DNA of 64,000 bases, from assembly GCF_000025005.1 (NCBI RefSeq), contig NC_013525.1, forward strand, positions 1,003,501 through 1,067,500, given 5' to 3'. Below, piece by piece: positions 13,337-17,049 of this stretch. The notes under the pieces are model-generated. The model saw only the letters and a program-made list of their open reading frames with translations. It had not been told where the DNA came from and searched no databases. Numbering within the stretch: position 1 is the first letter of the stretch; the number at the start of each line of letters is the position of its first letter. The position numbers and the translations under genes are program-made. The stretch comes from Thermobaculum terrenum ATCC BAA-798. Lineage in GTDB: Bacteria; Chloroflexota; Chloroflexia; Thermobaculales; Thermobaculaceae.

Positions 13337-14245
13337 CTATATATCTCCTGAGTACATAGCTTCGTCCAAAGCTTCCTCTGCTGCTGATTGTAGATCCTTG
13401 TTGCTCGAGTTAGCTATATGTCGGAGCATTCTCTTTGCCTGTGGTGTTCCTATTTGCCCCAATGCCCATATAGCAGCATGGATGGCCTCTTTATCTGTGT
13501 CTTCTTGAGTGAGTCTTATAAGATCAGGGACCGATTCTCTTAGTGCCATCTCCCCAGCGGCTCTAGCTGCCTCCTTACGCAATTTGGGATGAGGGTTACC
13601 AAGCTCCTTTATTATCGTTGAGGACCATTTGGTATTCATGGACCTGCCCATAGCGATGAGAGCGCTAGCTTGCTCCTCGTACCCACCTTCCCAGTAGAGA
13701 CGTTCTATGTAATCATCCGCTATGGGGTCTTCCTCGAAGAAGGCTAGTGCCTCTAGGGCTTTTCTCTGGAGCTCGCTGCCATCATCAGCCTGTTGTACTA
13801 CCTCCTGCAATACTTCCTGCAGCCGGCTTGCATGTTCATCATCTAACTCCCCAACAGCTGACTTGTAAGCGTAATTACTCAGCACTCCTGCTGCTGAAAC
13901 CCTAACTTCCAAAGAGCTATCGTTTAGCAGGATGCCTTCTAATTTCTCGAGAATGAATGGGCTGTCCTCCTCCCATAGCCCTTCGACCGCTACTTTTCTG
14001 ACTGCCGGATGATGGTCCTCAAGGGCGAATAGAAATATTCGCTTGAAGTTGTATTGGACGTCATCGTTAGCCAGCTTCTGTAATTGTTTTATTAGTTGCA
14101 CCCGCCTTGAGGCAGGAGCTCCATACCAGATGGCTTCGAGCTCCTGCATCTGATCCCAGCTTAGATCCGATAGATATATCAGATCTTGCTGGTGCATTGG
14201 TCCTTCTACTGTTAGCAGTCTTTTGAGACTGTCTGTCAGCCCCAC
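13337..14245 (-). CDS. HEAT-repeat protein
   Basis: 302 residues, all-helical, with HEAT/PBS-lyase type repeats. Clear units lie around residues 75-125 (HHPAVRKVAVEGLWEED then SLEVRVSAAGVLSNYA) and 222-300 (HPKLRKEAARAAGEMALRES, then EAIHAAIWALGQIG, then DLQSAAEEALDEAMY). Such repeats form curved scaffolds for protein binding, and no catalytic motif is present. It is acidic and has no signal peptide, so it is probably cytoplasmic. The GTG start at 14245 has GAGG 11 bases upstream. It lies 21 bases after the 570-residue unknown gene and four before murE, so it may hold a complex of this operon together; that is inference. Confidence 0.8.
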   Translation of the reverse strand: MGLTDSLKRLLTVEGPMHQQDLIYLSDLSWDQMQELEAIWYGAPASRRVQLIKQLQKLANDDVQYNFKRIFLFALEDHHPAVRKVAVEGLWEEDSPFILEKLEGILLNDSSLEVRVSAAGVLSNYAYKSAVGELDDEHASRLQEVLQEVVQQADDGSELQRKALEALAFFEEDPIADDYIERLYWEGGYEEQASALIAMGRSMNTKWSSTIIKELGNPHPKLRKEAARAAGEMALRESVPDLIRLTQEDTDKEAIHAAIWALGQIGTPQAKRMLRHIANSSNKDLQSAAEEALDEAMYSGDI

Positions 14246-14266: not shown

Positions 14267-15979
14267 CTAGGGGGTATAAGTTGCCAACCCCGATTCATCC
14301 TCTTTGAACTGAGGATACTGTGAGCTATTTATGATAGAACTCAGGTACTTTCTAGATATGGGTCGCTCGATGTTTACCACTGGCATGAGATCGTCGATTA
14401 GGGCGGTGTATTCACCATCTGCTTTCTCCCCGACGATCTCAAACGCCATAGCTACTATGACATCGAGCTTCTTACGATCAGAATCTGATAATCTCTTCTT
14501 TCCGTTGAGTGCTCCGACTCTGCTCTCTGATAGTAGCCAAGTATCGTCTACAGCACATTCGAATACTATTGGCGTAAATACCCACCTATCTCTACGTGAG
14601 TCGTACTGGAGTATCCTCTCCTCTCTTGCTGGTTGCCTCTCGTACTCTATTGTAAATGCATTACTGGATTCTCCCTGGACTAGATAGAAGATAGCTCCAG
14701 GGACCAACGTATTCTGGAAGAGCTCATCCAGTCCACCGATATATGTTCCTCTATTGCCACCACCTAACCTGAGTTCTGCTAGGTACTGTGCGTAACTCTG
14801 AGGATCCTGTATGCGCAGGACTATTACGTTTTGATCCTCAAGTAATGGCTTTGGCATTAGCTTCTCCATGGCCGGAGAGACGGGTAGTACGCCGTTCTCA
14901 TATTCATAGTAGGTCAGAACGTGCTTTACCTGAAGCCTTGGAGTGCCGTCTGAACCCTCAATTTCAGTTATATCTTCCTCATCTATTAGCTCAGGATCGG
15001 ACATGAACCGATAATCTTGGGCTATCTCGGAGGGCTTCCTGAATGGCTGACCTATAGGTGGTAGGTTAGTTACCGTCCATAGTCTATCGTCCTTTGTGCC
15101 CACGAACTTGAATTCTTTCTTTTCACGCAGAAGCCTGTAGTTGATAGTGAACCTTTGAAGGTTGTAGTCACCCTCCTGTAGTGATCTGCTAAGCGCATCC
15201 GAAAGAATTTCCTCATCAGATATAGGCTCGCCACGCTCCTGGATATACTCTCTGATATCTCTTAGCTGGCCCTTGCTTAGCCTCTCAAGTCTGTCTTCAA
15301 CGAAATACTCATCACCAAATATAGCGAACCTGAAGTCCTGTGCAAGATAGTCCTCCAGTTTGGCCTTAAAGGCGTCGTGATACTTAGCGATAATATCCTG
15401 CAGATCCTCATCGAGATCCACTAAGGTATCATCTATTCTCAAATACCTGATCCGCGAAGGTGCTTCCTCAACCTCGGCTTCTGGAGCGACTACTTGTTCC
15501 TGAGGCTCAACAGCAGGGGCCTCAGTTTCCACTTGAACCTGTTGAACAGGGGGAGTGGCTAGTATATCTTCGGGTATTTCCTTAGTCAGCCCTCTAATCT
15601 GCAGCTCCTCTTCTTCAGAGGGTTGTCGTGCACCTTCAAACAATCTGCTCCTAAATGTGTGGATTGTGTCTACAGATGCTGGCTTTGGAGGTCTACCTCT
15701 TTTAGTAGTGACTATATAGGTGCTAGAGTCTGAGGTCTCGACAGCAAATACATGAGAGTTAATGCTAACTGCCCTGAGCACCAATTCTCTAGCTTGTGAT
15801 TGATCCCCCTCTACGATCCTTTGGTTGACTAGATAATCCACCAGAGCATCAACATCCTGTCTTATGGGGGCATCCTCTGCGTAGAATCTCCCTTTGATTA
15901 GTAGCAGTTCAAAGATAGTGCTAGCTATCCTGGACTCCTGTTCCGCTCCCTGCCATTGTATGTCGGTTGTTATAGCCAT
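14267..15979 (-). CDS. unknown 570-residue protein with two winged-helix-like segments
   Basis: I do not recognise a named family. Residues 1-98 look like a helical unit ending in a beta wing (HVFAVETSDSSTYIVTTKRG), followed by an AT-hook-like GRPPKP at 95-100. Residues ~105-175 are a disordered Glu/Pro/Val-rich linker. Residues ~185-310 contain a second helical unit (SDEEILSDALSRSLQEGDYN) ending in a similar wing (KEFKFVGTKDDRLWTVTNLP). The C-terminal 260 residues are mixed alpha/beta and acidic, without a motif I can name. It resembles HARE-HTH or RNA polymerase delta style accessory proteins only in layout. The start is ATG 15979, four bases after the 49-residue gene; GGAGG is 13 bases upstream. 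It sits in an operon with the HEAT protein and murE. Confidence 0.72.
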   Translation of the reverse strand: MAITTDIQWQGAEQESRIASTIFELLLIKGRFYAEDAPIRQDVDALVDYLVNQRIVEGDQSQARELVLRAVSINSHVFAVETSDSSTYIVTTKRGRPPKPASVDTIHTFRSRLFEGARQPSEEEELQIRGLTKEIPEDILATPPVQQVQVETEAPAVEPQEQVVAPEAEVEEAPSRIRYLRIDDTLVDLDEDLQDIIAKYHDAFKAKLEDYLAQDFRFAIFGDEYFVEDRLERLSKGQLRDIREYIQERGEPISDEEILSDALSRSLQEGDYNLQRFTINYRLLREKKEFKFVGTKDDRLWTVTNLPPIGQPFRKPSEIAQDYRFMSDPELIDEEDITEIEGSDGTPRLQVKHVLTYYEYENGVLPVSPAMEKLMPKPLLEDQNVIVLRIQDPQSYAQYLAELRLGGGNRGTYIGGLDELFQNTLVPGAIFYLVQGESSNAFTIEYERQPAREERILQYDSRRDRWVFTPIVFECAVDDTWLLSESRVGALNGKKRLSDSDRKKLDVIVAMAFEIVGEKADGEYTALIDDLMPVVNIERPISRKYLSSIINSSQYPQFKEDESGLATYTP

Positions 15980-15983
15980 AGTG

Positions 15984-16133
15984 CTACTCAGACCTCCGCA
16001 GCCTTTCTATAACTATCTGTATATACCAGTCAGTAAGAGTGTCTATATTTTGTGGATTGCCCGATTCGGCCAATCTCTGGATCAATGTGCTTATGTCTTC
16101 CTCTTCAATTCGGAGATCTACAGTCTCCTCCAA
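15984..16133 (-). CDS. small acidic protein, 49 residues
   Basis: Short reading frame on the minus strand from TTG 16133 to TAG 15984. It is preceded by a near-perfect SD, AAGGAGGAA, with seven bases to the TTG. The product starts MEETVDLRIEEEDIS, is acidic at the N-terminus and amphipathic at the C-terminus (TDWYIQIVIERLRRSE), with no membrane segment. Its stop lies four bases before the start of the 570-residue gene, so it is the first gene of that operon. It is real on grounds of SD, spacing and neighbour; the function is unknown. A partner or regulator of the next protein is the obvious guess. Confidence 0.66.
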   Translation of the reverse strand: MEETVDLRIEEEDISTLIQRLAESGNPQNIDTLTDWYIQIVIERLRRSE

Positions 16134-16191
16134 GTTTAGGTTCCTCCTTAGAAGCTTTTAATCTTTATTTTACCTTTTTACGGAATTTATT

Positions 16192-17049
16192 TTACTTCTC
16201 CTGTTGTGTTTGCTGCAGGTTGTACTGCAGCTTCGCTACAAGTTGTGAATAGAAGTGCCTGGGCGGAGTTAGACGGATAAATTGGGCTGTCTCTGGACTG
16301 CCCGTAACTAGCAGGTGATCCCCATACTCAACGGGTGTATCTACCAGACCGTCTACGGATAGCAGCGCTTCCTGAGGTCTGGCTAACGTTAGGTCAATAT
16401 CTGAAGTGCTGGGAAGGATGATAGACCTTACAAAGCTTAGGTGAGCAGCTATAGGAGTAAGCAGTAGCTCGCTAAGCTCTGGTGAAAGTATGGGGCCTCC
16501 AGCTGCAAGAGAGTAAGCCGTAGAACCAGTTGCAGTAGCGGCGATAATACCATCTGCTACGTACTTTGCTAGGAGCACACCGTCAACGAACACTGTTATA
16601 GCCAAGGAACGGGGCTTGGTTCCCCTGGCCAGAACCGCATCGTTTAATGCTATATATCTGCCGATACAGCTATTATCTCGCATGTGAGAGATCTGAATAG
16701 TATGCCTGTGTTCTATTCGATATTCACCATTTACGACCTTCTTGAGGGCCTCTTCCAGCATTTGTGGTGGAACCTCGGCTAGAAAACCAAGTCTGCCAGC
16801 AGCGACTCCTAGAACCGGAATCCTATGCTTGAGTCCCAACCTCTGCGCACGTAGTACGGTACCATCGCCCCCTATAGCTATTACAAGTTGGGGTGGGTCG
16901 TAAGAATCAGGCTCAATTTCTCTAATATTGAGTATGTGTTGTACTTCAAGGCCGTAACTATGTAGTAACTGGATGGCCTTATTAGCTAGCTGCGAGGCGT
17001 CCTCGCTCATTGGGTGGCTTAATATAAGGACACGGTTAATCACTAACAT
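16192..17049 (-). CDS. nadK: NAD kinase
   Basis: 285 residues. It phosphorylates NAD to NADP using ATP or polyphosphate. The signature GGDGTVLRA is present near residue 60, followed by GVAAGRLGFLAEV, LNDAVLARGTKPRSL and GSTAYSLAAGGPI. The gene overlaps the tlyA stop by 14 bases; either ATG 17049 or GTG 17043 could start it. It ends the yebC-ruvC-tlyA-nadK series. The tlyA-nadK pairing is widespread in Gram-positive and Chloroflexi genomes. Confidence 0.94.
   Translation of the reverse strand: MLVINRVLILSHPMSEDASQLANKAIQLLHSYGLEVQHILNIREIEPDSYDPPQLVIAIGGDGTVLRAQRLGLKHRIPVLGVAAGRLGFLAEVPPQMLEEALKKVVNGEYRIEHRHTIQISHMRDNSCIGRYIALNDAVLARGTKPRSLAITVFVDGVLLAKYVADGIIAATATGSTAYSLAAGGPILSPELSELLLTPIAAHLSFVRSIILPSTSDIDLTLARPQEALLSVDGLVDTPVEYGDHLLVTGSPETAQFIRLTPPRHFYSQLVAKLQYNLQQTQQEK

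Follow-up and report, generated by a model that had tools for sequence, protein, structure and literature searches.

The window, a stretch of 64,000 nucleotides from Thermobaculum terrenum ATCC BAA-798, contains a same-direction run of genes comprising RuvC, an FtsJ/S4 methyltransferase, NAD kinase, a small open reading frame (ORF), a large ORF, a HEAT-repeat gene and a Mur ligase. The features considered here are the following:

13337..14245, minus strand: HEAT-repeat protein of 302 amino acids, the next downstream gene
14267..15979, minus strand: large ORF of 570 amino acids (P0003), without a Pfam or NCBIfam family, a probable multi-domain DNA-binding protein
14546..14950, minus strand: residues 344-478 of the large protein, a B3-like DNA-binding pseudobarrel (fold match only)
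15062..15280, minus strand: residues 234-306 of the large protein, its second winged-helix-like domain (a Z of about 7, which is within background)
15692..15949, minus strand: residues 11-96 of the large protein, its first winged-helix-like domain (best matched to 8as8_C, Wadjet JetABC)
15984..16133, minus strand: small ORF encoding a helical hairpin protein of 49 amino acids (P0002), with a TTG start
16134..16191, minus strand: 58 bases from the NAD kinase stop to the small ORF, in which no promoter- or terminator-like site was seen
16141..16149, minus strand: Shine-Dalgarno-like box AAGGAGGAA, with the TTG 7 bases further on
16192..17049, minus strand: NAD kinase, the upstream neighbour

The small ORF spans 49 codons on the minus strand, from the TTG at 16133-16131 to a TAG stop at 15986-15984, and within its open frame this TTG is the sole start codon that would yield a product of 36-62 residues. 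Only four bases (15983-15980) separate its stop from the ATG of the 570-residue ORF. The frame, its TTG, the box seven bases ahead and the four-base gap are all as an earlier note on this DNA had described them, the strand being minus. The same note had placed the ORF at the head of an operon, a position that is unproven, since the ORF begins 58 bases past the NAD kinase stop in a same-direction run and a scan of positions 15900-16700 showed no promoter-like or terminator-like site. The upstream neighbour varies by family: NAD kinase occupies this place in the window, a gene of the same cluster does so in five other loci, and a ROK-like protein, named by eye, is found there in 25 class loci. 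According to the part of the source consulted (PMC3035366), the genes of the T. terrenum genome were called with Prodigal and GenePRIMP.

The genome contains one perfect match to TGGATCACCTCCTTT, a putative 3′ end of 16S rRNA. In the window, AAGGAGG occurs 11 times against 11.8 expected, and the combination AGGAGG-N5-9-TTG occurs 8 times against 3.7 expected, a number reached by one of 100 shuffles. Because the box itself is present at chance frequency and the box-plus-TTG arrangement is enriched about twofold, the ribosome site alone is weak evidence, and we rejected it as proof of a gene.

It is the conservation of the frame in relatives on which we judge the ORF to be real. The large gene was located at one locus in 60 of the 61 relatives searched, the single miss (G007) being a genome that is 51% complete, and a small-family profile, iterated on the same loci that it later scored, identified, in each of the 60 same-class genomes that carry the large gene, a homologous small frame directly upstream of it; in one of these, G022, the small frame lies on the contig piece bearing the N-terminus of the large gene. 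Run against 16,409 six-frame ORFs from the 60 fetched stretches, this profile returned 59 family rows, the worst at E 0.0029, and 15 others, the best at E 0.32. The 49 residues used alone as a query hit the expected position in 27 of the 61 genomes, comprising all seven of the window's own family (E ≤3.6e-7, directly upstream of the large gene) and 20 genomes of other families, where the right spot was matched at weak E-values of 0.0016-0.40. A small frame was likewise present at each of the 19 further class and near-class loci checked, namely at all 16 examined of 17 additional class genomes matched by the large-family profile (the 17th being G406) and at three of three near-class loci, which belong to two families outside the class and have the split layout; at L195 the small ORF was matched at E 3e-17 in a wider scan.

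Selection on the small gene points in the same direction. By the Nei-Gojobori method, dN/dS lies between 0.02 and 0.29 in 10 of 11 groups, computed on pooled ungapped pairs at least 45% identical (four pairs, for example, in the window's own family), with synonymous sites saturated in the eleventh group, and third-position changes are the most frequent in each of the ten. The products of the family are 37-56 residues long when start codons in the relatives are picked by a Shine-Dalgarno rule; in G054, no start codon yields at least 36 residues. The earlier note had proposed that the ORF is an overlooked gene and that the idea would fall if the frame were missing from relatives that keep the 570-residue gene; this was examined, and every one of the 60 class genomes with the large gene has the frame, which is under purifying selection. 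On these sequence comparisons, the 49-residue ORF is a genuine protein-coding gene.

The spacing of the two genes was compared across the class, with a locus counted as overlapping if any of the first three candidate starts of the large gene overlapped the small frame, so that the distances depend on the chosen starts. By this measure, the stop of the small gene and the start of the large gene share 1 or 4 bases at 23 of the 60 class loci, 0-50 bases lie between them in 21 and 51-160 bases in 14, while two loci were not scored, G053 having no start ahead of the match in the frame used and G022 being interrupted by a contig break. Thus, given the 14 loci with longer gaps, tight translational coupling is not universal. 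By tblastn, 49 of the 60 class loci have a HEAT gene downstream of the large gene, two of the 11 misses lying at contig ends; the small gene accompanies the large one at every one of the 60 loci, the 11 with no downstream HEAT match among them.

The model of P0002 consists of two helices, at residues 11-24 and 30-48, with a mean pLDDT of 89.7. The protein had been described as acidic and amphipathic, and for P0002 itself its net charge of -7 and its first helix, whose hydrophobic moment is matched by 212 of 10,000 permutations, agree with this; the second helix is not convincingly amphipathic (2,838 of 10,000 permutations), and acidity as a trait of the family was rejected, as charge is not conserved and 22 of 60 members have a net charge of 0 or above. 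What the family does share, in the numbering of the window's protein, is a core of Leu17, Leu21, Pro27 and Leu33, each kept in 44 to 49 of 51 aligned members, together with Arg at position 22 in 41 and Gly at position 25 in 33 of the 51.

Searches with P0002 gave no Pfam or NCBIfam row above cut-off, and PADLOC and PHROGs returned no row for it. The top rows in Pfam and NCBIfam, DUF2555 and IsiD (ssl0461), are of similar length and reach E 0.02 and 0.023, but their scores of 15.2 and 14.7 bits compare with curated cut-offs of 25 and 90, and DUF2555 appears in just two of the 51 aligned members, so that this identification was rejected. In a tally by E-value, without cut-offs, the best Pfam rows over the same 51 members are weak and scattered, including DUF4777 in eight members (best E 0.00043) and HTH_20 in four (best E 0.002). 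A fold search with the P0002 model (best Foldseek E 2.0, best Z 4.5) was uninformative for a two-helix hairpin. A winged helix comprises three helices and a beta wing; the P0002 model, unlike winged-helix proteins, has two helices and no wing, and is too small for a complete domain of this kind, such that a docking or completing piece fits the predicted structure better than a stand-alone DNA reader.

The large protein, too, is poor in recognizable families. P0003 gave no Pfam or NCBIfam row at E 1, with no nuclease or restriction-enzyme family found on it there, and no PHROG; 48 members of its family searched against Pfam gave single-member rows only, at E 0.024 or worse, and PADLOC returned for P0003 one weak row, also at E 0.024. 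No row fell below E 0.09 in a sequence search of solved structures or below E 0.001 in a viral structure library, and the single 570-residue protein used as a query against the genome contigs matched no relative. Its model, with a mean pLDDT of 89.3, is more informative. Residues 344-478 superpose on 4ldw_A with Z 10.0 and an rmsd of 2.3 over 102 residues, and the 18 top VIA rows for this segment are B3-fold chains at Z 8.6-10.0, among them the plant proteins ARF1, VAL1, FUS3 and LEC2 together with the N-terminal domain of LlaJI.R1, a restriction protein; three of the 18 (1yel, 6c5d and 4i1k) we take to be B3-fold. Foldseek agrees, with ARF2 at E 3.9e-4. The segment thus shares the fold of the B3 domains of plant ARF, ABI3/VAL, RAV and REM factors and of restriction enzymes such as UbaLAI and LlaJI.R1, but P0003 differs from these proteins in having no sequence-level B3 match and no nuclease family. 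Since the Pfam B3 family (PF02362) was over cut-off in 0 of 81 genomes, with none of its 12 weak rows lying within the large gene, the assignment is a statement about fold.

Residues 11-96 of P0003 resemble winged-helix proteins such as the Wadjet JetABC winged-helix chain, Cdt1 and Orc2, the match to 8as8_C having Z 8.0 and an rmsd of 2.8 over 83 residues; this Z is near background, no value is higher, and no sequence match accompanies it. In the large protein and its relatives, a low-confidence, poorly conserved linker rich in Pro, Glu and Ala (residues 131-178), very variable in length, separates the two winged-helix parts. Taken together, the modelled winged-helix and B3-like domains suggest that the large protein likely binds DNA. 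In a scan of named genomes, the large gene was also seen in Chloroflexus, Roseiflexus, Herpetosiphon and Oscillochloris records, and two further records, L236 (Candidatus Gracilibacteria) and L255 (Singulisphaera), hold relatives of it at 64% and 40% identity, respectively; it seems likely that both are mis-binned Chloroflexota contigs.

The evidence that most directly links the two proteins comes from outside the class. A large-family profile run over 400 genomes of the phylum matched 101, of which 47 lie outside the class; all 47 were examined, and three show the split layout and 44 a fused type. In the 44 fused-type loci, no separate small ORF was detected at E ≤0.1 within 500 nt upstream, and in every one of them the large protein itself starts with a hairpin segment that aligns to the small protein, typically a W followed by D, L, P and L at set distances; in L178, L182 and L184, which fall outside this motif pattern, the hairpin was confirmed by reading. 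These fused-type proteins (L144-L187) are single chains of about 520-610 amino acids whose body and N-terminal hairpin are both homologous to the split pair, and they too lack an assigned family, with no Pfam match in the five searched and no NCBIfam match in the three searched at better than E 0.05.

Profile-profile alignment with hhalign related the hairpin to the fused N-terminus over 41 ungapped columns, with E 7.6e-6, a probability of 84% and 17% identity. The score of this match, 39.2, compares with at most 18.8 among 33 natural decoy families and at most 18.1 among 200 column shuffles, with 12.6 for the reversed profile and with 15.2 for the rest of the fused protein; in plain hmmsearch, only 12 of the 44 fused N-termini were matched by the small profile at E <0.1. 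The split and fused bodies are homologous over 351 columns (E 4.9e-27), and in the reciprocal search 52 of 61 relatives were matched; all rows fell on the large gene, and in none did the match begin before model position 131. What follows the hairpin also differs, being beta-rich by eye in the fused form and a winged helix in the split form. The fused protein is thus not simply the small protein plus the large one, given this differing domain and a match confined to positions from 131 on.

An unrooted tree of the shared body, built by a quick method without bootstrap and with the truncated L085 and L102 left out, places a single branch (SH-aLRT 100) between 74 split and 44 fused rows, and the tool flagged long branches that meet. 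No locus among those examined carries both forms, so that the two forms exclude each other and, on this quick tree, make up coherent groups. As the tree is unrooted, both fission and fusion are possible. No HEAT match was found among the called ORFs of 17 fused loci, by an ORF calling that merged the large and HEAT families into a single cluster and recovered HEAT in 41 of 60 class loci compared with 49 by tblastn. Right after the fused gene, 12 of the 17 loci (L145, L147-L150, L152-L157 and L160) have a family of about 140-150 residues without a Pfam match in the one member tested, in the place where the split class mostly has the HEAT-repeat gene.

Several other accounts of the small ORF have to be weighed against these data. 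The simplest, a chance frame behind a ribosome-site-like box, draws on the chance frequency of AAGGAGG in the window, but conservation in 60 of 60 relatives and purifying selection rule it out, and we give it practically no weight. Nor does a leader ORF, in which translation would matter through coupling or attenuation and the peptide would not, agree with amino acids conserved far above synonymous sites, with a confidently modelled pair of helices (mean pLDDT 89.7) or with homology to a segment of a longer protein; the frame is indeed short, and its stop overlaps or lies within 50 bases of the following start in 44 of 60 loci, but purifying selection on the amino acids disfavours a mere leader peptide, which is very improbable.

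The likeness to the fused N-terminus might instead be that of any helix-turn-helix hairpin, the small gene having arisen separately. Only about 40 residues are involved, at 17% identity, the small profile weakly resembles helices of the second winged-helix-like domain (E 0.0074, probability 5), and for most fused proteins plain hmmsearch gives a weak match or none. Such a generic resemblance would, however, have to account for a score of 39.2 where 33 natural families, the 200 shuffles and the rest of the fused protein give no more than 18.8, 18.1 and 15.2, for a hairpin that keeps the same order relative to a homologous body, and for the absence of any examined locus with both forms, and we consider it improbable. 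Somewhat less so, though still unlikely in our judgement, is a small protein that is real and independent, its gene travelling with the large gene and its product serving the same process without binding the large protein. The 51-160 bases that separate the genes in 14 of 60 loci would suit such a protein, as would the different domain beside the hairpin in the split and fused forms; what speaks against it is that a homologous hairpin lies in the same chain as the same body in 44 of 44 fused loci, and that none of the 60 class loci, not even the 11 where no HEAT gene was seen downstream, lacks the small gene next to the large one.

The reading that we prefer, with a probability of roughly 0.6, takes the 49-residue protein for a subunit, translated on its own, of a DNA-binding complex in Chloroflexota, where both the association of small with large and the binding of DNA are what we infer. 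By the usual reasoning on fused genes, the occurrence of the same module fused to the large body elsewhere indicates that the two products work together and are probably bound, the pair probably being a single machine made in two parts. By the sequence comparisons, the small gene encodes part of a protein that occurs in several classes of the phylum, a part for which one lineage has a gene of its own. In this split lineage, the hairpin would be made as its own polypeptide, its synthesis tied to that of the large protein through abutting or overlapping frames in most loci, and it would rejoin the large protein as a subunit of the putative complex, in which the large protein may hold DNA through its winged-helix and B3-like domains, as their folds suggest. 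One locus per genome and presence throughout the class favour a chromosomal role, making a chromosomal regulator or architectural protein more likely than a mobile defence or toxin element.

A more specific version, which we offer tentatively and regard as doubtful when all its parts are taken jointly, is that of a lineage-specific Chloroflexota complex, in two pieces or fused, that reads DNA via a B3-type domain outside restriction systems, with the hairpin split off or joined once, on a deep branch; its B3-type large protein, though bacterial, would be related in fold to plant hormone transcription factors. Within the open-licence library searched, we found no published work on the small/large pair, nor papers on a B3 domain in Chloroflexi or on small proteins detected by ribosome profiling in Chloroflexota. 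For the plant B3 domain, the part of the source consulted (PMC2688026) suggests an origin in a horizontally transferred gene of the EcoRII type.

A gene of about 37-56 residues kept throughout a class represents a protein family that annotation may miss across that class, and it offers a handle on a large protein family without an assigned domain. The natural occurrence of split and fused forms, in turn, provides a ready test of how the small subunit acts. If the B3-like fold of the large protein does bind DNA, it would also bear on where the plant B3 factors came from.
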